DNA of 23,213 bases from a virus: positions 1-23,213 of IMG/VR virus record IMGVR_UViG_3300010430_000468; one strand, given 5' to 3'. Below, in pieces: positions 1 through 19,674 of the stretch. The notes under the pieces were generated by a model that was not told where the DNA came from, did no database searches, and saw nothing but the letters and a program-made list of their open reading frames with translations. Both the position numbers and the translations under genes were made by a program. How positions within the stretch are numbered: the first letter of the stretch is position 1; every line of letters begins with the position of its first letter.

Positions 1-13
1 AAAAAAAAAAAAA
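1..13. repeat. Poly-A run at the window edge
   Basis: Thirteen consecutive A residues open the window. It could be a genuine A-tract, the T-tract of a leftward element, or an assembly edge artefact. A small hairpin lies just inside it (GGGGATA at 33-39, loop CGAA, TAT at 44-46, CCCC at 48-51, one bulged G), but it is too far from the A-run to make a standard terminator. Confidence 0.6.
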
Positions 14-73
14 CATGTACTACTACAGGGACGGGGATACGAATATGCCCCTTACTCAAATGTTGTGGGACGT

Positions 74-126
74 TAGTAAACATCCGGTAAACATACGGGG
101 AACTGTAGTAAACATCCGGTAAACAT
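74..126. repeat. GTAAACAT repeat array
   Basis: A 21-nt unit occurs twice, at 74-94 and 106-126, identical and offset by 32 nt. Each unit holds two copies of GTAAACAT separated by CCG (76-83 and 87-94; 108-115 and 119-126), so there are four copies in about 50 nt. The array is noncoding and lies just beyond the terminator of the leftward genes. Regular short repeats of this kind fit a binding site for a regulator or replication protein, but no function can be assigned from sequence. Confidence 0.75.
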
Positions 127-142
127 GCAGGAAAATAGTGCG

Positions 143-1295: not shown

Positions 1296-1826
1296 TTACT
1301 CAGGTGACTCCATGCCTTCTAACAGAGAATCCAAGTTAACCTCTTCATCCTTGCTGTCCCGGCGCTCCTGCTCGATACGGTCAAGTACCTTCGCAGCTGG
1401 AGAGTCCTTGCGGAAAATATACGCTACCTTGTCCGGCGTAGCGTCCTTGAGAAGCGTCTGTGCCTTCGCCAGCGGCACTTCAAGTACCTCAGCTAAGGCT
1501 TCCGCCTTGGCAGATACTAAGCGTATCGCGCCCTTCTCACGTTCCCGCTTGAACGTACCTTCGAGCCAGTCGTTCCAAGTATCCCGAAAGGCTAGAAGCT
1601 TCTCTAACCCCGATTTACCGGAATTACGTGCTGAGAGCATTGGATTGATTGACTTGCATAAGTACAGGTCAAATATAGGACTTTCCATAATGTCCGCTAT
1701 GTGGAATGTTTCCGTTCCAGTGATAGCTCCGTTCTCAGTAAGAATAATCTTAACCGACTGATTATCCTTGGCTATTTCAACGGTCAAGCCGTTGTCCTTT
1801 AGTTGCTTAGTCATATTAAACTCCAA
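1296..1826 (-). CDS. Hypothetical phage protein, 176 aa, paralogue of 196-684
   Basis: The family is not recognised. The protein has strand-like residues 8-45, then a mainly helical body and a highly charged C-terminal helix (residues about 145-165) ending in an acidic segment NLDSLLEGMESPE. Shared features with the 162-aa protein are LSARNSGKS (versus LQDRTSGDS), a WLEG/RLESGEW block, VPLAKAQTLLK (versus VPQAQKALK) followed by a P-containing turn and an IF pair, and an LDxL terminus. ATG at 1826; the alternative Met at residue 5 (MTKQL) has TTGGAG placed better and may be the real start (1814). Its promoter is at 1911-1940 and its terminator at 1259-1288. It is probably an early protein of unknown role. 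Confidence 0.82.
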   Translation of the reverse strand: MEFNMTKQLKDNGLTVEIAKDNQSVKIILTENGAITGTETFHIADIMESPIFDLYLCKSINPMLSARNSGKSGLEKLLAFRDTWNDWLEGTFKREREKGAIRLVSAKAEALAEVLEVPLAKAQTLLKDATPDKVAYIFRKDSPAAKVLDRIEQERRDSKDEEVNLDSLLEGMESPE

Positions 1827-2116: not shown

Positions 2117-2177
2117 ATAACTGTCGGTAGTTTCCCGCAATAACTGCCGGTAGTTTCAACGCCGAAAGTTTCAACGC
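2117..2177. repeat. Paired near-palindromic motif upstream of the virion block
   Basis: Two 18-nt copies differing at one base lie at 2117-2134 and 2140-2157, exactly 23 nt apart. Their core, AACTGTCGGTAGTT or AACTGCCGGTAGTT, is nearly palindromic (AACT...AGTT around a CCGG-like centre). A degenerate third copy follows at 2158-2177. The same core, again in two copies 23 nt apart, recurs at 18906-18942 in inverted orientation. Two helical turns between copies suggest cooperative binding of a dimeric regulator, or a phage-specific promoter element; neither is proven. Confidence 0.7.
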
Positions 2178-2256: not shown

Positions 2257-2307
2257 ATGAGTAATGAAGTAGAAGCTACGCAAAGGACATCCAGTGTCAG
2301 TATCTAG
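2257..2307 (+). CDS. Possible 16-codon leader ORF overlapping the SGNH protein gene
   Basis: An ATG at 2257 sits nine nt behind a strong GGAGG (2240-2244) and encodes MSNEVEATQRTSSVSI before a TAG at 2305-2307. The 511-aa gene starts at a GTG (2294) inside it, in the +1 frame. The leader may raise translation of that gene by coupling. Alternatively a +1 shift near ATC-TAG could fuse it to the long protein, or a base may be missing in the sequence. Both frames read Ser-Val-Ser at the overlap. Confidence 0.35.
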   Translation: MSNEVEATQRTSSVSI

Positions 2308-3829
2308 TAACGTGGAAAGCCCCGTCGAGCGTGGGGTCGGACATAACGCAGATGCGGTTGCTAACGCAGACGCAGCGGTCGGTCGTATCTCCGGTGCTTC
2401 GCAATACGTGCAGGATGTAGTCTGGAGTTTCGTATACCGCGAAACAATGCACGGTATGTGGCAATACATACACTCACTAAACATTCCCAAGACCGACAGC
2501 ACTAGGGGGCTCGTCGACATCAAGGGAAATGAGAGCAATGCGTCGCTGGTCGGAACAGGTCATGGACACGATGCGCAGAAAGGCTTTACGCTGACCAGCG
2601 CTAGTGGGCTCGATGTTCAGGTAGATACTGGAGATATAGGCGAAGACACAGCGGATCGCGATTACGTTATCGGGTTCTTCGCGAGCGATTTCTCGGCGTC
2701 GGGAACTAACGATTATATCTATGGTGTGTATAATGGCGGCGGTCCGAATTGTGCGTCGGCTCTGTTCCACACTGGTGGTAACCTCGCTATACAGCACAGC
2801 TCTACCTGGCCATATGCTACCAAATACACTGTGCCGATTACCGACCTCGAATCCGCAATGGTCGAAGTTCGCGCGGATGGGGACGATATAGTTCTCATCA
2901 AGGACGGGGTCGAGTATCATCGCGAAGAAGCTGCGATAGGAGCAGGCAACAAACGTCCGCCTGGGCCTATAGTCTTTGGCGCACAAACTAATACTCCAAC
3001 CAACTCCGCTATGGCAATGACCCTACACCTAGCGTACACAGCTACGCCACAGTTAGACACCGTCGGCTTCCAAGTACGGGCGAGAGCCATGCTGAACGCG
3101 CTCGACCTGACGCAAGAAACATTTACCAATACGTATGAGAACGGCGACTCGTTATCTGCGGACAGTACAACATTCCCGCCAGACCCAGATGAAGACACTT
3201 CCCAGTATCGCGGGTTTACGGACGCAATGGTCGAGCCGGTCGCCATAATCCACGATTCAGAGTCGGGAGACAATCTCGAGGAGATTCGTGCGCGGGTTGA
3301 AACCAATCTGTCGTCACACCCCACAGCAGACTCTGCCGTTATCGCGGGTGGGGTGAACAATATGAGCGAAACAGTTGCGCCTACTATCGGATTTCTTACC
3401 GGCGAACTCGATGCTATCATCGCAGAGATTGAAGCCAACACTAACATCAAGAAAGTAATTCTGGTTCCTATCGGACTGTTTCACTGTACCGCTGCCTTTA
3501 AGTGGGACTTAGCTCGTCAAGCGGTCGCCGATGCGTACAATGCGTACATGAAAACACTGGTAGACAACGAGAAGTATTTCATGCTAGACTATAACCTATA
3601 CCGTACGTTTATGGAAACGGATAACCCAGACTTCGATCTGAGTTCTGAAAGCGCTCCTTGGGGCGGTCCATATGATGTGGACGGTTACTCGGGTCTAACA
3701 CCGACTGGCGGCACACGTATCCCACGTGTATGGGATGGTATTCACTTTACACGGTATGGTCGAACAGGCATGGCGAAGATGCTTGACGCGGTCGTTCGTT
3801 CCACCCGTTATACAATCAAGAGGGCTTAA
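2294..3829 (+). CDS. SGNH/GDSL-hydrolase-like protein, candidate tail spike or depolymerase
   Basis: This 511-aa protein has three parts: an N-terminal segment (1-100), a beta-rich, LamG/concanavalin-like middle (about 105-265), and a C-terminal SGNH-like hydrolase domain (about 310-505). In the last, IIHDSESGD (318-326) resembles block I with Ser322 as nucleophile. GGVNN (352-356) resembles block III with Asn355 as oxyanion residue, and WDGIHF (480-485) gives the block V Asp481/His484 pair. The family includes carbohydrate O-acetyl esterases, which fits a spike that trims host surface glycans. The GTG start has AAAGGA six nt upstream, but a leader ORF with a better ribosome site overlaps it. 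It lies far from the other tail genes. No signal peptide. Hydrolase call fairly sure; virion location inferred. Confidence 0.75.
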   Translation: MSVSSNVESPVERGVGHNADAVANADAAVGRISGASQYVQDVVWSFVYRETMHGMWQYIHSLNIPKTDSTRGLVDIKGNESNASLVGTGHGHDAQKGFTLTSASGLDVQVDTGDIGEDTADRDYVIGFFASDFSASGTNDYIYGVYNGGGPNCASALFHTGGNLAIQHSSTWPYATKYTVPITDLESAMVEVRADGDDIVLIKDGVEYHREEAAIGAGNKRPPGPIVFGAQTNTPTNSAMAMTLHLAYTATPQLDTVGFQVRARAMLNALDLTQETFTNTYENGDSLSADSTTFPPDPDEDTSQYRGFTDAMVEPVAIIHDSESGDNLEEIRARVETNLSSHPTADSAVIAGGVNNMSETVAPTIGFLTGELDAIIAEIEANTNIKKVILVPIGLFHCTAAFKWDLARQAVADAYNAYMKTLVDNEKYFMLDYNLYRTFMETDNPDFDLSSESAPWGGPYDVDGYSGLTPTGGTRIPRVWDGIHFTRYGRTGMAKMLDAVVRSTRYTIKRA

Positions 3830-4892: not shown

Positions 4893-5391
4893 TGTTGTTA
4901 GTAGTGTTATACTGCCGCATACTCCGAACTTTGCGAAAGCTAGATACAGACGGAAAGAAGCATTCCGAAAAGGACTGAAATATGAGAACCAAGTCCACGA
5001 ATATATGTTTGACAAGTTCGGCGTTTATTATGCGCCGGGCGTGTGGTTTCGTTACACAACGGAAGATGCACCGAAACGTGAGAATTATATTCAGACGGAC
5101 GGTCTCGTCATTGATGTCGAGAAAGGGCTTGTTACTATTGTCGAGGTCAAGTGGGCTCACAATGTCGGAGCGTACGTTCAATTGGTTGAGCGATATCTTC
5201 CCGTCGTTTCGCACTTCTTTGGTTCAGACCTTTTCGAGTTTCGAACGGTCGAGGTTGTTCATTGGTATGACGCGAACATTAAATTTCCCGGTGTCAGCAA
5301 GCTCGCAAAAGATGTTGCAAATATAGAAAAGAATTGTGTAGGGATTCACATTTGGAGACCTGATTATGGCAGACGGAACACAGGCAGTTAG
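4843..5391 (+). CDS. PD-(D/E)XK nuclease-like protein between TerS and TerL
   Basis: This 182-aa protein has the hallmarks of a RecB/Cas4-like PD-(D/E)XK nuclease. Glu48 lies in the first helix (GLKYENQV), Asp86 or Asp91 in TDGLVID, Glu101-x-Lys103 in IVEVKW, and a QLVERY segment (113-118) resembles the QxxxY motif. The N-terminal 40 residues are very basic and may hold DNA. The ATG follows AAGGG and overlaps the TerS-like gene by 50 nt; the end overlaps terL by 26 nt. Many phages encode an HNH nuclease beside the terminase to help processing at packaging; a PD-(D/E)XK enzyme here could do similar work, resolve branched DNA, or attack competing DNA. Fold confident, role uncertain. Confidence 0.75.
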   Translation: MSSRKTRYRHRQKPIRDVVSSVILPHTPNFAKARYRRKEAFRKGLKYENQVHEYMFDKFGVYYAPGVWFRYTTEDAPKRENYIQTDGLVIDVEKGLVTIVEVKWAHNVGAYVQLVERYLPVVSHFFGSDLFEFRTVEVVHWYDANIKFPGVSKLAKDVANIEKNCVGIHIWRPDYGRRNTGS

Positions 5392-6871
5392 TACAGAGGA
5401 GCTGGTAAGATTATGTGCGGTCGACAACGATCTGTACTCTCGTACGTTCTTCCCTCGTGCTTGTCGTCAGCCGAGTCCTCCGATGCACGCAGAAATGTGG
5501 AAGGCATCTGAGAACCATTTTAATAGATACGTTAACTTCAAAATATTCCGCGGTGGGGCAAAGACCACCTTCGGTCGAGTGTTTTTAAGTAAGCGTATCG
5601 CGTACGGAATCAGTCGGACGATACTGATTGTTGGCAAGTCACAGGATCATGCGATTCGCACGGTCGAGTGGTTGATGAAGCCAATTGAACACGGAAGTCT
5701 GTGGGCACAAACCTATGGCCTGAAGAAAGGACGGAAGTGGACAAGTAGTGATTTGGAAATTATCCACGAAGCGGAAGGCTGTACGATTAGGGTTATTGCT
5801 ATTGGTATTACTGGGTCTACTCGCGGAATTAACGTGGATGATTATCGTCCTGATTTGATTATGGTGGATGACCCCTGCGACGAGGAGAACACAGCCACAG
5901 CGGAAGGACGGGGAAAGATGGAACAGCTGTTCTTCGGTTCGTTAGCGAACAGTTTGGCGCCAGAGTCTGAGTGTCCCGAAGCGACTATGATGTTGCTGCA
6001 AACCCCGCTTGAAGAGGGTGACCTCACGGATATATGTACTAGAGATCCGCAGTGGATTACACTGTCCTACGGCTGTCTAACGTCAATGGATGACAACATC
6101 TCGGAGAGTACGTGGCCAGAGCGTTGGTCGAAGAAAGTTCTGTTAGAAGGCAAGGCTGCCGCGATTGCACGTAATCAGCTGAGTATGTGGTTACGAGAAA
6201 ATATGTGTGTCATGACGTCGAAGGAGTTACAGACCTTCGACCAAGAGTGGCTCGAGTATTGGACGGTTCTTCCCGAACGAGCTCGGTATGTTGCCGCGAT
6301 TGACCCCGCACCAGTCCTGTCGGATAAGATGCGAGCTAAAGCGGTCAACCAACAGACGACCGACTTCCAGGCGATTATGGTAAAAGCCTATTATAAAGGT
6401 CGAGCGTATGTTGTAGAATATATGCAGGCACGAGACCAAGACCCTGATATGGTATGTAATACCATGGATCAGTGGAACAGAAAGTATCCAATTCTCCGTT
6501 GGGGTGTGGAAGGTACAGCATACCAGCGGACATTAAAATGGTTTATCGAACGGCAGATGAAAGCAGGCAAACTTCTGCCCAAACGAATTCAGGAACTACC
6601 AGCTATTGGTGATAAGTTCCAGCGTATTGTTCAAGCGCATACAGACAGAGCATCCAATGGGATGTTGTATGTACATAGAGATCATACGGATTTTATATCA
6701 CAATTTACTCAGTATGGCCCGGGAGCTAAGTATCGTGACCTTCTCGATGTGAGTGCGATGTGTGACGCAGTTATGTCACCGGCACTAGAAAGTTTTATTG
6801 ACGGAGATTACGAAGAAGTGGGTTATGGTGACGTAGTGAAACCTTTGGAGTATAGACGCGGATGTCCTTAG
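5366..6871 (+). CDS. terL: Terminase large subunit
   Basis: The 501-aa packaging motor. The N-terminal ATPase has a Walker A-like loop RGGAKTT (62-68), a Walker B strand LIMVDDP (164-170) with acidic residues after it, and a coupling-type LLQTP (210-214). The C-terminal RNase H-like nuclease starts at AAIDPAP with Asp313 as a likely metal ligand, has Glu382 in WGVEGTAY, and a late acidic cluster near RDLLDVSAM. Length is normal for TerL. It pumps DNA into the prohead through the portal and cuts concatemers. ATG 5366 has GGAG upstream. It overlaps the nuclease gene upstream and the portal gene downstream by 26 and 10 nt, so the packaging genes form one unit. Confidence 0.95.
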   Translation: MADGTQAVSTEELVRLCAVDNDLYSRTFFPRACRQPSPPMHAEMWKASENHFNRYVNFKIFRGGAKTTFGRVFLSKRIAYGISRTILIVGKSQDHAIRTVEWLMKPIEHGSLWAQTYGLKKGRKWTSSDLEIIHEAEGCTIRVIAIGITGSTRGINVDDYRPDLIMVDDPCDEENTATAEGRGKMEQLFFGSLANSLAPESECPEATMMLLQTPLEEGDLTDICTRDPQWITLSYGCLTSMDDNISESTWPERWSKKVLLEGKAAAIARNQLSMWLRENMCVMTSKELQTFDQEWLEYWTVLPERARYVAAIDPAPVLSDKMRAKAVNQQTTDFQAIMVKAYYKGRAYVVEYMQARDQDPDMVCNTMDQWNRKYPILRWGVEGTAYQRTLKWFIERQMKAGKLLPKRIQELPAIGDKFQRIVQAHTDRASNGMLYVHRDHTDFISQFTQYGPGAKYRDLLDVSAMCDAVMSPALESFIDGDYEEVGYGDVVKPLEYRRGCP

Positions 6872-8805
6872 AAAAAGATTTAAAATTTGGGTCGAAGCGG
6901 CATCAGTTCGTTCTTGACGCAGTTATGCGGAGATATAAGTTCTCCAAAGAAAAGATGCAAACCAACTACGACAAGTTTAAGGAACAAGACGAACAGTTTC
7001 TTGCATACATGCCGGAGAAGGATCAAGATGCGGTACGGAGAAACCTTCGTAGTCAAGGTGGTGAGCCACAATATACTACGATAAATATCCCGTACAGTTA
7101 CGCTGTGGCTATGACGGCACATACCTATTGGACTTCTGTGTTCTTCGGACGTACGCCTACGTTCCAGTTTGAGGGAACGAGCGGACAACCGGAGCAAAGC
7201 AAGTTTGCGGTTGAAGCTCTGATTGACCACCAAGTACGAAACGCCAAGATGGTTCCGGTAGGATATCAATGGCTGGCTGATGTATCTAAGTATGGCATGG
7301 GTATTATCGGTACATACTGGGATGAGATGCAGATTATTGTGAACGAGATGGTTGAGGTCGAGGATACATTTCTCGGACAAGGTCTTGGCACAACAACCAA
7401 GAAACAGCAACGAAAGGTGATGGAGAGTTACAAGGGTTCTAAGTCGTACAATGTGCGTCCTACCCAGTTCTTCCCTGACCCACGCGTACCGCCAATCAAG
7501 CTCCAGGAAGGAGAGTTTTGCGGCGTCGAAGCTGAGGTTGGTTGGAATCATATCAAGAAAATGGCTGCGAATAAAAAGTTCTTCAATATCGGAGCGCTGT
7601 CGCAGAAACGAGCACAGAAAGCTACCGAGAATTCGGACGATTGGGGACGAGGAACAAACCGCCCATATCGTCCGGAAGAAGGAAAGTGGCTAGAGATTAT
7701 GGACATGGAGAATGTGTCCCTCATCGAGATGTATGTGGAACTAAGCCCCAAAGACTGGGGTCTAGGTGAAAACACGTTCCCAGAAAAGTGGGTATTCGTC
7801 GTCGCGAATGAATGTGTGGTTGTCGCCGCACGACCTTTGGGTGATGCCGGAAATGAGTTTCCTTTCGACGTGCTAATCAGCGACGTGGACATGTACAGCA
7901 TGTTTACGCCAAGCGTGATGGAGCGTACGAAGCCGATGGAAGACGTCATTTCGTGGCTATTAAACACCCATTTTTACAACGTTCGGAAAACTCTTAACGA
8001 CCAGTTTATTGTAGACCCAAGCATGGTTGTTATGAAAGATCTGATAGACCCGGAGCCTGGCGGTATTATACGTCTCCGGGAAGAATACTTCGGAAGCGAT
8101 GTGCGCCAAGCGGTACACCAACTTCCGGTACAAGATGTGACCCGTGCGCATTTGCACGACACAGAAATGATGGGTCAGATGATCAGTAAAGTTACTGGAG
8201 TGTCTGACAATATTATGGGAATGTTGGGAACTGGTGGCAGAAAGACCGCAACTGAAGTAAGAAGTTCTACGACCTTTGGCGTCAATAGACTAAAAACTAG
8301 TGCAGAGTGGTATTCTGCCACCGGCTTCTCTGACTGGGCAAAACGTATGCTCAGGTATTCCCAACAGTATTATGACGGAGATGAGATGTTAAGAGTGGTA
8401 GGCGATACTGCTCGGTTCTCCGGACTGCAACATCTGAAGGTTACCCCGCAAGAAATCCAGGGTGCTTTCGACTTTGTGCCAGTAGATGGTACACTACCTG
8501 TAGACAGATTTGCGCAGGTAAGTATGTGGGCGAATTTGTTTGGACAAGCACGAAACATTCCGCAAGTAGCGTCCACTTATGATATGGGTCGTATCTTTGG
8601 TTGGGTCGCACAGTTGGGGGGAATTAGAAACATTGAACAATTCCGTATCCAGGTGCAACCAGATGACCAGATACAGAACCAAGCACAAGCGGGAAATATT
8701 GTCCCGATGAGAGGTCAAGGTGGACAAACACCAGGAGGAGGCCAGACAAGAGAAGGAGGTACTCCAATCACTTCTGCAATCCAAGGGGTGGGACCTGCTG
8801 GTTAA
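6862..8805 (+). CDS. Portal (head-to-tail connector) protein
   Basis: A 647-aa protein following TerL directly, with the size and layout of podovirus portals. It has an alpha-helical N-terminus, a conserved-looking core (PYSYAVAMTAHTYWTSVFFG near residues 75-94; YGMGIIGTYWDE later), a wing/stem region in the middle, and a Gln/Gly-rich flexible tail (from about 610). The dodecameric portal sits at one vertex and is the docking site for TerL and, later, the adaptor. The first 10 nt overlap terL; the last 86 nt overlap the small gene at 8720. An excellent Shine-Dalgarno-like stretch (AAGGAGGT, 8753-8760) inside the 3' end just encodes Arg-Glu-Gly-Gly, with no start codon at the right distance. 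Confidence 0.88.
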   Translation: MSLEKDLKFGSKRHQFVLDAVMRRYKFSKEKMQTNYDKFKEQDEQFLAYMPEKDQDAVRRNLRSQGGEPQYTTINIPYSYAVAMTAHTYWTSVFFGRTPTFQFEGTSGQPEQSKFAVEALIDHQVRNAKMVPVGYQWLADVSKYGMGIIGTYWDEMQIIVNEMVEVEDTFLGQGLGTTTKKQQRKVMESYKGSKSYNVRPTQFFPDPRVPPIKLQEGEFCGVEAEVGWNHIKKMAANKKFFNIGALSQKRAQKATENSDDWGRGTNRPYRPEEGKWLEIMDMENVSLIEMYVELSPKDWGLGENTFPEKWVFVVANECVVVAARPLGDAGNEFPFDVLISDVDMYSMFTPSVMERTKPMEDVISWLLNTHFYNVRKTLNDQFIVDPSMVVMKDLIDPEPGGIIRLREEYFGSDVRQAVHQLPVQDVTRAHLHDTEMMGQMISKVTGVSDNIMGMLGTGGRKTATEVRSSTTFGVNRLKTSAEWYSATGFSDWAKRMLRYSQQYYDGDEMLRVVGDTARFSGLQHLKVTPQEIQGAFDFVPVDGTLPVDRFAQVSMWANLFGQARNIPQVASTYDMGRIFGWVAQLGGIRNIEQFRIQVQPDDQIQNQAQAGNIVPMRGQGGQTPGGGQTREGGTPITSAIQGVGPAG

Positions 8806-10067: not shown

Positions 10068-11321
10068 ATGTCTGCAATAGCAGGACTCCGCGGAACTGGT
10101 GATTGGGAAACGGGAGAACGCCCACAGAATTTTCGGGAATTCATCCTTTGGCGCAATCCGAACGGTACCGCACCTTTAACAGCCCTTATGGGTAAGATGG
10201 CCACAGATACTGTGAACGATCCACAGTTCCACTGGTGGGACGAACCGAATGACTTGCTGCGTTTGCAAGTTGACGGTCCTGTTGCACAGGCGGGTACGAC
10301 TATTACAGTCGATTCTCCCGACCCTAGCATCGGTTCTCCTGGTATCGTTTATGGCTCAGGTCTGAACTTGAAAGAAGGCGACCTTTTGATGGTGGAGCTG
10401 AACGCTTCCCAGACGAAGGAAGATTCTGACATTGGTAACCACGAGATCTTGCGAGTGATTGGTACTCCTACCGCGACAACATTTACTGTTGATCGTGCGC
10501 AGGCAGGTACTTCGGCACCCGCAGGAGCTGATTCGATTCCGGATGATGCGCACTTGCTGCTCATCGGTTCGGCATACGAAGAGGGTAGCCCAGCAGCAAG
10601 CGCTACATCTCGTAACCCAATCAAGTTCACCAACTACTGTCAGATTTTCAAGACCTCTTACGAGATTACGAAAACAGCGTTGAAAACTTATGCGCGTACT
10701 GGCAAGGTTGAGAGCAACGACAAGAAACGTAAAGTGTTCGACCACAGTCGACAGCTCGAATTGGCGATGATGTTCGGTCAGTCTGCAGAGACTACCGGCA
10801 CAAATGGTCAGCGTCTGCGTTTCATGGGCGGTCTTCGGGAATTCATTCCTCAGACTAATACGAACATCTTCAACGCGAATGTGACATGGCAGCAGTATGT
10901 AGCTGCTTCTGAATCAGTATTTGATTTTGACACACCCGCTGGTGATGAACGTATCCTGTTCTGCGGTAATGGGTATCTGAACTCACTGAACAACATGGCT
11001 CAGACACAAGGTCAGGTTCAGCTGGGCGCAATCGTCAAGCAGTACGGTATGGAGCTTCGTGAAATCATCATGCCTACAGGCCGTTTCTATGTTAAGACAC
11101 ACCCACTGATGAATCGTCATGCTGCGTTTAAGTACAGCGCTTTCATCATTGATGCGTCTGCTCTACGCTACCGTCCACTACGTGACACCAAGGCTGAGGA
11201 TAATATCCAGACTCCAGGTGATGATCGCGTGATGGGTCAGTGGCTAACAGAAACGAGCCTCGAGGTTCGTTATGCCGGTCTGACTCTCGGTTATCACGGG
11301 AACTTCGTCAGCGCAGCGTAA
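10068..11321 (+). CDS. Major capsid protein, SU10/DUF5309-like
   Basis: A 417-aa protein with the layout of HK97-fold capsid proteins of the SU10/DUF5309 group. An N-terminal arm is followed by FHWWDE (54-59). A beta-rich insertion comes next (about 75-168; GTTITVDSP, TTFTVDRAQAG). The conserved-looking core is NYCQIFKTSYEITKT (189-203), a helix with EL-M-FG, then MGGL and loop segments; the C-terminus forms the last strands. It builds the icosahedral shell. AGAGGAAAT gives a strong ribosome site, and an intrinsic terminator follows directly (11335-11370), suited to making this the most abundant product. Position after the scaffold-like gene agrees. Family assignment is from recalled patterns, not from a search. 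Confidence 0.9.
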   Translation: MSAIAGLRGTGDWETGERPQNFREFILWRNPNGTAPLTALMGKMATDTVNDPQFHWWDEPNDLLRLQVDGPVAQAGTTITVDSPDPSIGSPGIVYGSGLNLKEGDLLMVELNASQTKEDSDIGNHEILRVIGTPTATTFTVDRAQAGTSAPAGADSIPDDAHLLLIGSAYEEGSPAASATSRNPIKFTNYCQIFKTSYEITKTALKTYARTGKVESNDKKRKVFDHSRQLELAMMFGQSAETTGTNGQRLRFMGGLREFIPQTNTNIFNANVTWQQYVAASESVFDFDTPAGDERILFCGNGYLNSLNNMAQTQGQVQLGAIVKQYGMELREIIMPTGRFYVKTHPLMNRHAAFKYSAFIIDASALRYRPLRDTKAEDNIQTPGDDRVMGQWLTETSLEVRYAGLTLGYHGNFVSAA

Positions 11322-11334
11322 GCTGTATAAGAAT

Positions 11335-11370
11335 GGGGAGGGGATTTTCTCTCCCCCTTCTTCTTTTTTT
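11335..11370 (+). terminator. Intrinsic terminator behind the capsid gene
   Basis: GGGGAGGG (11335-11342) pairs with TCTCCCC-containing sequence at 11349-11356 (one G-U) around a six-nt loop, followed by a T-rich tract with a final run of seven T. It lies 13 nt after the capsid stop codon and 11 nt before the next start. It probably attenuates rather than ends the operon, since the genes behind it show no promoter of their own. Confidence 0.85.
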
Positions 11371-11381
11371 AGGAGACAGAG

Positions 11382-17576: not shown

Positions 17577-18907
17577 TGAAGTTATTACAGTGTAAGGGTG
17601 GCAGTTCTACGGTCGAGGATAATACATATCCTACAGGTCCGTTTGAGCCGCAGATCCCGTATATCAACAAGCTGTTTTCGGAAGGAAATCGTTTGTATGA
17701 TACAGGTGGGCCACAACAATATGACGGCAGTACAGTTGCGGATACACACCCACAGCTCGCACAGAACCAGCAGGCTGTTCACAATTATGTGGGACAAAAT
17801 GTCGGGACTGCGCAAGCTGGGGCTAATGCCGCTCTGAACAACGCGCAAGGTAATGCGAGTAACCCAGTATTGGATACGGCTCAACAGAATAATCCCTTTC
17901 TAAACTACGGTATAGCCGCACAGCTTAACCCAAATAGCGCACAAGGGGCGATCTTACCGCAGGTAGGGGGTAACGTAACCAATAGTATAAACGCGGCTTT
18001 GTCCGCAAATCAGGGCGGACTAGGGGGGGTAGTGGTACCAGGTACAGATGCTGGTAGCCAAAACATCTCCGGAGTCTTGCAGAACCAATTGAACGGGCAG
18101 CCGCTGAATCCATACCTTGAACAGCTTGTACAGGATCAGGCGAGTACAGCAGCTCGTGCGTTCAATGACAATGTTCTCCCTACCATACGTACCGACGCAG
18201 TTAATGCCGGACAGTTCGGAGGTACGCGTCACGGTATCGCTGAGGGTATTGCATCTAGTAGAATGGGAGAAGATATCTCCAAGATTACTAATCAATTATA
18301 TGGTGATGCGTATGATAAGGGACTTCAAGCGCAGCAATTCGCAACGGGCGTGGTGGCTGACCAACAGCAATCCGGTGTCAGCAACTCTCTGCAAGGGCAA
18401 CAACTCCAGGGAACACTCGACCAACAGCGGAACCAAACTGCGCTTAATGCAGGACAACTGGCTAACCAATTCCAGACAGGCGCAAATCAAGCGTTAAGTT
18501 CTGGTACAAACACAGCTGCCGGACTGTTGACCCAAGGCGGCGCTCAAGGAGTTCAGCAACAGAATGCAGGACTTGGAGCACTTCCTGGATTACTAGGTTC
18601 TGGTAGCGGTTTGTTGACTCAAGGCAACCAGGCGGGTGTACAACAGCATGAGCAAAGTCAGGCACAATTGACAGACGTAGTCAACCAGCATAATTATGAT
18701 GCGAACCTGCCATGGCAGAATCTGGCACAGTATCAACAGTTTGTATCCGGTCCGTTCGGCTCCAGTATTACAGGAGAAGAGAATGGAGACGGAGCAATTA
18801 ATCCTTATCAAAGTTTACCAGGATTCGGTGTGTATAATCCTACAACCTCGAGGGGAGGCGATGGCGGCAAGGGCGGACAATTGCTATCACCCTTAATGCA
18901 AAGATAA
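17576..18907 (+). CDS. Internal virion or DNA-ejection-type structural protein
   Basis: A 443-aa protein rich in Gln, Asn, Ala and Gly with few hydrophobic stretches. A conserved-looking central block contains QFGGTRHGIAEGIASSRM (residues 213-230) followed by amphipathic helices. I recall this block from structural proteins of short-tailed phages, but no biochemical role is known to me. Residues 235-400 show irregular Gln-rich repeats (LQGQQLQ; LLTQGGAQGVQQQN and LLTQGNQAGVQQHE). The C-terminus is Gly-rich. It starts at a TGATG overlap with the GNAT-like gene and is followed by the second copy of the paired motif (18906-18942). Probably an internal or ejected protein, by position. Confidence 0.68.
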   Translation: MKLLQCKGGSSTVEDNTYPTGPFEPQIPYINKLFSEGNRLYDTGGPQQYDGSTVADTHPQLAQNQQAVHNYVGQNVGTAQAGANAALNNAQGNASNPVLDTAQQNNPFLNYGIAAQLNPNSAQGAILPQVGGNVTNSINAALSANQGGLGGVVVPGTDAGSQNISGVLQNQLNGQPLNPYLEQLVQDQASTAARAFNDNVLPTIRTDAVNAGQFGGTRHGIAEGIASSRMGEDISKITNQLYGDAYDKGLQAQQFATGVVADQQQSGVSNSLQGQQLQGTLDQQRNQTALNAGQLANQFQTGANQALSSGTNTAAGLLTQGGAQGVQQQNAGLGALPGLLGSGSGLLTQGNQAGVQQHEQSQAQLTDVVNQHNYDANLPWQNLAQYQQFVSGPFGSSITGEENGDGAINPYQSLPGFGVYNPTTSRGGDGGKGGQLLSPLMQR

Positions 18908-18942
18908 CCACCGACAGTTTGAATTTATAACTACCGACAAAT
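18906..18942. repeat. Second paired near-palindromic motif, inverted orientation
   Basis: AACCACCGACAGTT (18906-18919) and AACTACCGACAAAT (18929-18942) match the complement of the 2117-2134 core at 13 and 12 of 14 positions, and they are again 23 nt apart. The first copy overlaps the stop codon of the gene upstream. This is the only other sizeable gap in the rightward block, so the motif pair may control the ejection-protein genes behind it, as a phage-specific promoter, operator or RNA-processing site. Confidence 0.65.
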
Positions 18943-18954
18943 TAGGAGAAATAT

Positions 18955-19674
18955 ATGGTTTGGCCAGCACTAGTAGCAGCAATGCCATACATAAAAGCAG
19001 CAATGGCAGGTTTGGGCGTCGCTCAGATGGGCGCGCAAGCAGCAGGAGTTTACGATCAGGACAGTAAACAATCAACGAATAACGGAGCGGCAACGCCGGG
19101 GTCGCAAGGTGCGCCAGTGGACCCAGGGAACGCATTTATGAATATGCCTTCTAGTTCTCCAGGTGGGGGTCCATTCAGCTCCATGTTAGCAGGGATGAAC
19201 GCGCTAAGCGGAGCCGTCGGAGCAACGCCAGCAAATGCGGCTGTGGCTGGCAACGATGTGGACGGAGCTATGCTAAGCGATCCAGCAGTTGCTCCGGCTC
19301 CTCCGCCTCCACCAATTCAGGAAGCGACGCCTGCAGATTTTCAAGGTCCGCAAGCGACACAGCCTCCGGCAGTACAAGGTGCTCCGCATGTACCACAGCC
19401 TGGCGATCCTGACTTTATGGGACCGACTCAGCCTCAACCTCCCGCTGCGGGCGATGATATGTCGTGGACAGACTGGGTCGAGTTTGCTCCAGGAGCTGTA
19501 ACAGCAGCTGCTCCATTTCTGACACCTCAACGCGAAACTGTGCGACAAGGGTCGACAGGTATTCGTCCAGTAGGTCAGGCGGTACAGGCGAATGTGCTAC
19601 CTACCTTTACTCCAAACAAAACTCCATCTGTTGGCGAGATTCTTGCCTTGTTAGAGAAAGCTACACAGGGATAA
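18955..19674 (+). CDS. Pro/Ala-rich structural protein
   Basis: A 239-aa protein of unknown family. Residues 1-30 form a mildly hydrophobic helix (VWPALVAAMPYIKAAMAGLGVAQMGAQAAG) that could touch a membrane. Residues 35-165 are disordered and very rich in Pro, Ala, Gly and Gln, with a polyproline run (APAPPPPPIQEA). Residues 168-239 contain WTDWVEFAPGAVTAAAPFL and a short C-terminal helix. The ATG follows AGGAGA, and the gene is the first behind the paired motif at 18906-18942. Its neighbours suggest an internal virion or ejected protein that helps DNA across the envelope; sequence alone does not show this. Confidence 0.68.
   Translation: MVWPALVAAMPYIKAAMAGLGVAQMGAQAAGVYDQDSKQSTNNGAATPGSQGAPVDPGNAFMNMPSSSPGGGPFSSMLAGMNALSGAVGATPANAAVAGNDVDGAMLSDPAVAPAPPPPPIQEATPADFQGPQATQPPAVQGAPHVPQPGDPDFMGPTQPQPPAAGDDMSWTDWVEFAPGAVTAAAPFLTPQRETVRQGSTGIRPVGQAVQANVLPTFTPNKTPSVGEILALLEKATQG

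Follow-up and report, generated by a model that had tools for sequence, protein, structure and literature searches.

Paired near-palindromes at a fixed 23-24 bp spacing form a conserved, probably operator-like architecture in a family of tailed phages

At 23,213 bases, the window analysed here, an IMG/VR virus record, covers about half the genome of an uncultured tailed phage, and it carries four 14 bp near-palindromes grouped as two pairs. Pairs built in the same way, with a spacing of 23 bp or, in some pairs of a Vibrio phage, 24 bp, recur in its relatives at two to five per genome, both at promoters and between stop codons and ribosome-binding sites. This regulatory architecture, seen here from one member, is real and conserved; its general kind is known and the variant is new. 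Each pair very probably serves a phage regulatory protein as a double binding site.

Two pairs of dyads in the window

By terminase, the nearest cultured relatives of the window phage were Microcystis phage Mel-JY34 (38% identical) and Vibrio phage VS-ABTNL-3 (W02; 35% identical). Three leftward genes, two related small ones and one other, occupy positions 196-1826; the dyads and the main rightward features are as follows.

2119-2132, + strand: dyad site 1a of pair 1, AACTGTCGGTAGTT
2142-2155, + strand: dyad site 1b, AACTGCCGGTAGTT, 23 nt after 1a
2294-3829, + strand: first rightward ORF past pair 1, with a weak GDSL-lipase-like match (E 0.0037, below cut-off)
5366-6871, rightward: large terminase
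6862-8805, rightward: portal
10068-11321, rightward: capsid
18906-18919: dyad site 2a, AACCACCGACAGTT read rightward and AACTGTCGGTGGTT on the - strand, overlapping the stop codon that closes the preceding ORF
18929-18942: dyad site 2b, AACTACCGACAAAT read rightward and ATTTGTCGGTAGTT on the - strand, 23 nt after 2a
18955-19674, + strand: ORF directly behind pair 2, without a family match

As the original prediction had it, near-palindromic copies are present in two pairs (2119/2142 and 18906/18929), each with a start-to-start spacing of exactly 23 nt, and the 18-mers ATAACTG[T/C]CGGTAGTTTC at 2117 and 2140 show 94% identity. The description of the second pair as inverted is ambiguous because the core, AACYRYCGRYAGTT, is a degenerate palindrome; read rightward, all four copies begin with ATAAC and three of them end with AGTTT. 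Both pairs do lie in non-coding DNA, but the gap housing pair 2 (18908-18954, 47 nt) is not one of the two main rightward gaps as had been supposed, the gap at 11322-11381 being longer. Site 2a begins within the TAA stop codon (18905-18907) of the preceding ORF, and pair 2 ends just 5' of the AGGAG belonging to ORF 18955.

The window holds two pairs only, which might suggest a chance repeat, but this explanation is already refuted statistically and its probability is negligible. Eleven matches with at most three mismatches to the window dyad were observed against 1.94 expected. The four-site match requires four consensus mismatches, whereas the minimum reached in 60 second-order Markov surrogates was eight when any spacing from 14 to 60 was allowed, and 12 when only spacings of 23-24 were considered (n = 20); likewise, none of 100 first-order surrogates contained such a quad (spacing 18-45). 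No surrogate of the window thus equalled the match, as the prediction had anticipated in calling chance unlikely. Moreover, a palindromic matrix derived from either pair ranked the other pair first among the non-training positions of 23,177, and an excess of quads at spacing 23 as well as cross-recognition among relatives (see below) likewise speak against chance. The window pairs are confirmed as non-random.

The sigma70-like promoters and the single site recognised in the window are:

749-777, - strand: leftward promoter TTGACG-17-TAAAAT for ORF 196-684, with GTCGGTAG (763-770) in its spacer
763-770, - strand: weak site, possibly a single half of the window motif
1911-1940, - strand: leftward promoter TTGACT-18-TAAGAT for ORF 1296-1814
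2230-2258, + strand: predicted promoter TTGAAC-17-TACAAT (9/12 consensus)

The earlier statement that the virion genes lack a good sigma70 promoter in front of them could not be upheld. Judged from its letters, the promoter at 2230-2258, with pair 1 approximately 75 nt upstream of it, is probably the start of the rightward virion operon, and in relatives TTGACA-like promoters are found immediately 5' of the terminase operon, G012 for example having TTGACA-17-TATAAT. No good sigma70 promoter overlaps either window pair, and none was seen near pair 2. The CTACCGAC at 763-770, previously put forward as a weak single site, was confirmed within the spacer of a leftward promoter; no partner was seen 23 bp from it. 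Two further elements were observed in this part of the window. A 16-codon ATG frame (2257-2307) is probably not translated; it opens within the -10 of the promoter at 2230-2258 and extends across the GTG (2294) at which the first rightward ORF starts. A 17-bp inverted repeat (807-899; arms 88% complementary and 59 nt apart) lies in the stretch that separates the leftward promoter at 749-777 from the leftward gene following it.

Recurrence of the pairs in related phages

When the window's own letters were searched directly in the relatives, they were absent or at chance level; DNA similarity to the window pair in phage records was by chance only, and a strict scan with the window dyad gave no matches. 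A scan of viral contigs with the consensus of the window and L023 (the locus of G013) returned two matches only in L023's own contig, and five other contigs, which show no similarity to window proteins, gave single chance matches that were rejected. The pairs of the relatives were found by scanning for any self-similar tandem pair that is repeated elsewhere within the same genome, and the following dyads were obtained.

G013 (L023): dyad AATTATAAGTAGTTT, two pairs
G009 (L017): dyad core TACAAGTA, four pairs and a possible fifth
W02 (Vibrio phage VS-ABTNL-3, MF497422): dyad GAATTRTAYAATTC, pairs at 3160/3183, 42181/42204, 32133/32157, 39923/39947 and 23200/23224
G022: dyad TAATTGTATAGTTG / CAATTACACAATTA, four pairs
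G002 and G003: dyad GGGGCGGGTT
G020, G023 and G017: dyad AATGATTGCATT

G018 carries its own version of the pair, as does, weakly, G010. The letters are therefore absent from the gaps of close relatives, an outcome that the original prediction had named as counting against it, but the architecture is kept there, each relative having its own dyad with equal spacing and in equivalent positions. The records' own dyad pairs at 23-24 bp beat all 20 surrogates in G013, G009, W02, G022, G023 and, marginally, G018, whereas G017, G020, G010 and G003 failed to do so singly and rest on synteny or a shared motif. G002 likewise rests on synteny or a shared motif, the best quad of its surrogate test being a different one from the pair discussed here. 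The dyad of G002 and G003 came from the palindromic pair model, an exact k-mer search for a motif shared by G001-G003 having failed. Across whole records, 61 quads were found at spacing 23 and at most 24 at every other spacing, multiples of three being left out because of coding periodicity; the pair-score statistic alone is not decisive, as AT-rich genomes score high at other spacings too. Finally, motif letters were cross-recognised at 22-24 bp in non-coding DNA within three groups, namely the window with G013 and G009, W02 with G022, and G002 with G003.

Near AT tracts, G011, G012 and G015 contain arrays (periods 13, 21, 23 and 26) that have the look of origin repeats and were not counted. 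Upstream of the terminase operon, L020 (857-925) contains about three near-exact 23-nt tandem copies of the non-palindromic GGATTAGTGTGTAAAACAGGTAA.

A fixed two-turn spacing is typical of iterons, and origin-like AT tracts with repeats are present in these phages, so that the pairs might be taken for replication iterons or for partition or packaging sites. The origin-like region has other repeats, however (GTAAACAT in the window at 76-125, and different ones in G003, G002, G012 and G015), and the pairs are spread across several gene starts; we consider this explanation highly improbable. With regard to the origin-like region itself, window positions 1-130 comprise a 13-nt A run followed by two 32-nt repeats with four GTAAACAT-like units, approximately 10 nt apart inside each repeat, an arrangement that gives the left end of the contig the appearance of one half of a replication origin. 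Comparable repeats flank A/T tracts in G003 (L006 7000-7250), G002 (L005 7250-7530), G012 and G015, and this may be the reason that contigs break at this point and that the length of several relatives is close to 23 kb.

Location of the pairs relative to genes and promoters

The small-terminase gene is preceded by a pair in seven relatives (G013, G009, G017, G020, G023, W02 and G018); pairs also stand before a homologous ssDNA-binding-like gene in G020 and G023, and directly 3' of the capsid gene in G002 and G003. A pair fills the short space from a stop codon to the following ribosome-binding site in the window (18906), W02 (3160 and 32133), G009 (3657) and G022 (9716 and 18795). Other pairs, in part the same ones, coincide with near-consensus sigma70 promoters (G020 27132, G023 41142, G023 25049, G020 11733, G009 3657 and W02 32132), and where the promoter is clear, the pair covers its spacer, -10 or start, a geometry that is typical of operators. 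Promoters covered in this manner are:

G020: TTGACA-17-TAGAAT
G023: TTGACA-18-TAAGAT and TTGACA-17-TATAAG
G009: TTGACT-17-TACAAT
W02: TTGTGA-17-TATATT

The best sigma70 score was higher at pairs than in control upstream regions (median 8.1 versus 6.4, p 1.4e-4), the pairs being partly chosen by eye and the scores being inflated wherever the dyad itself is AT-rich.

Several pairs stand directly before ribosome-binding sites, and RNA pairing between the two copies of pair 1 is conceivable if G-U pairs are allowed, which would be compatible with an RNA-level element, i.e. a translational operator or a processing hairpin in the leader. By inspection, however, such a hairpin is impossible for window pair 2 on the rightward transcript, and other pairs lie hundreds of nucleotides upstream or between the -35 and the -10 of a promoter. 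At G020 27132 and G023 41142 one site is situated within the -35/-10 spacer and is hence not transcribed from that promoter, indicating that DNA rather than RNA is recognised. An RNA element is accordingly very unlikely.

The pairs could, on the other hand, be activator sites or a phage-specific class of late or middle promoters, whose dyads would recruit host RNA polymerase together with a phage factor, with transcription starting in or after the second dyad. The 23 bp spacing approximates the distance from -35 to -10, a -10-like TACAAT or TATAAT often lies within the second dyad, pairs head transcription units in both directions in G009, internal pairs directly before ribosome sites leave room for very short leaders only, and window pair 2, like others, has no sigma70 promoter nearby. 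Against this, the sigma70 -10 varies from -14 to +13 relative to the pair start where both are clear, the near-consensus promoter of G020 requires no activator, and the window dyads are not -10-like. We regard this reading, the main rival, as unlikely. Among the late promoter, activator site and repressor operator originally proposed, the regulatory type as such stands and the repressor operator is favoured; the late promoter is weakened because phages differ in how far a pair lies from the closest sigma70 -10 and because some pairs stand at the head of early, leftward genes. A dual role, with early genes repressed and late genes activated, is possible.

A candidate binding protein

In 15 of the 26 records, both cultured relatives among them, the early region encodes a small, unannotated protein with a strand-helix-helix pattern; in Vibrio phage VS-ABTNL-3 its gene lies at MF497422 34514-34741 on the - strand. 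The candidate was spotted by eye and its family was confirmed by profile search. Ribbon-helix-helix (RHH) families account for two of its five weak Pfam leads (RHH_3, the best, with E 0.005, and RHH_1 with E 0.044, from one member each); most members have no Pfam match, and as these matches are below cut-off, the protein is called no more than RHH-like. In an AlphaFold model of low to modest confidence based on eight sequences (pLDDT 67, pTM 0.38), residues 1-18 are extended and helices span residues 19-29 and 41-54; a structure search with this model against the PDB gave no match.

RHH proteins read DNA with their strand segment, and the presumed DNA-reading strand of the candidate varies between phages. 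G020 and G023 have in common the strand AVTFRI and the dyad AATGATTGCATT, the strand match having been found first and the dyad afterwards, and G002 and G003 share the strand KKLSLR together with a GGGGCGGGTT dyad at the same place. W02 and G022, with similar dyads and dissimilar strands, are an exception to this rule. In G009, one of the pairs heads a leftward gene block that includes the RHH-like gene. No such gene was detectable in G004 (49 kb), and no 23-bp pair was found in G001, G007, G012, G014, G015, G021 and W01, which do have the gene. As the window, being about half a genome, lacks the genome region concerned and has no RHH-like gene, the link of this protein to the window pairs is indirect. 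A single-sequence search of viral contigs for a larger RHH set returned only the query's own contigs.

Searches for other regulators were negative within their range. Pfam and PHROG scans of 20 Vibrio phage proteins revealed no clear regulator; no CI-like HTH_3 repressor exceeded the cut-off in any of the 26 records, the one sub-threshold match being in the Vibrio phage small terminase; the T7-like RNA polymerase domain PF00940 was not found in the 26 records in a search whose control was equally silent, and no full-length T7-like polymerase was evident among the annotated genes of the two cultured relatives. Nor was a tyrosine integrase found in these records, several of which are fragments. 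In a limited literature search, mostly without subscription papers, we found no description of the pairs or of the RHH-like protein.

The binder might alternatively be another conserved phage protein or a host regulator. The paralogues encoded at 196-684 and 1296-1814 (- strand; PHROG 28928 type) are one example; this family adjoins the divergent gap, occurs in one or two copies in 17 of the 26 records and is present in the window. Their model, however, has three strands at the N-terminus, is helical in its C-terminal half and falls into no recognised DNA-binding family, and their acidic C-terminus, SLDDLA, resembles the tail of an ssDNA-binding protein. A host regulator, for its part, would be hard to reconcile with the drift of the motif inside a single phage family; both possibilities together appear improbable.

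For the RHH-like protein as binder the balance tilts slightly in favour, and we lean to a similar degree towards repression as the net effect. The pairs with their spacing, recurrence and positions are observed, whereas binding by a protein, its identity as the RHH-like one and the repressive effect are deduced from them. As the best explanation, the following mechanism is proposed. Each pair would be an operator made of two dyads, bound by a dimeric protein that the phage encodes, with the small RHH-like protein of the relatives' early operon as the best candidate and with two dimers sitting 23 bp, or about two helical turns, apart and probably in mutual contact. At sigma70 promoters the complex would cover the -10/start region and thereby repress, whereas inside operons, as at pair 2 in its gap between stop codon and ribosome-binding site, it might serve as a further block to transcription or as a cover on a weak internal promoter. 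The dyad letters would drift while the spacing is kept because the base-reading strand of the RHH-like protein changes between phages. Whether the pairs are in this full sense operators of a phage-encoded dimeric regulator, mostly repressing and acting like stoperators within operons, we judge to be evenly balanced. More tentatively, and with somewhat less than even weight, a single RHH-like global regulator may run the early, replication and virion operons, combining strict 23-24 bp spacing, conserved gene positions and letters that are almost wholly replaced between phages with co-evolution of regulator and operator. If this were true, the family, in which no tyrosine integrase was detected, would represent a natural series of regulator-operator co-evolution with a previously undescribed regulator. 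The pairs are likely to constitute the regulatory code of a large group of mostly uncultured phages that has no known transcription factor, and one cultured relative, Vibrio phage VS-ABTNL-3, offers a concrete candidate regulator. With spacing conserved and letters not, they also form a natural data set that should be useful for studying the joint change of a DNA-binding protein and its sites.

Comparison with known systems

The stoperators of mycobacteriophage L5 and other Cluster A phages are repressor sites located at promoters and in short intergenic spaces and oriented along transcription, with a consensus that is specific to each phage group and drifts with its repressor (PMC6550527, PMC9283540). 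The L5 sites are 13 bp long, asymmetric and singly bound by a monomeric two-domain HTH repressor, and the phages are temperate (PMC6550527, PMC9283540). The orientation along transcription is shared with the pairs, and in layout and in consensus drift between groups these stoperators are the closest known system. Because a monomeric HTH protein occupies each asymmetric L5 site singly, whereas the dyads described here come in pairs at 23 bp, we did not assign the pairs to the L5 type; in addition, there are two to five pairs per genome here as opposed to more than 20 sites in L5, no tyrosine integrase was detected, and the candidate is RHH-like.

The OR and OL regions of lambda contain near-palindromic dimer sites about 23-24 bp apart over sigma70 promoters, but as two or three sites in a single control region, bound by HTH repressors and not spread across late genes; spacing and promoter overlap are thus alike, whereas the distribution differs and no such repressor was found here. 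P22 Arc, MetJ, CopG and NikR are short strand-helix-helix proteins that bind short dyads as dimers, and NikR spans a pair of sites separated by roughly two turns. The sequence similarity of the candidate to these proteins is weak, its inter-helix loop is longer (DPxTxRPxYG), and no structure match was obtained. Protein p4 of phi29, a phage regulator that uses two inverted-repeat sites to control early and late sigma promoters, has another fold and belongs to another phage, and may be likened to the proposed protein as a two-site phage regulator.

Between the convergent operons of the Vibrio phage (L047, MF497422), a 24-bp pair of the same dyad at 23200-23235 makes up a large inverted repeat, which may be a terminator or a roadblock serving both directions.
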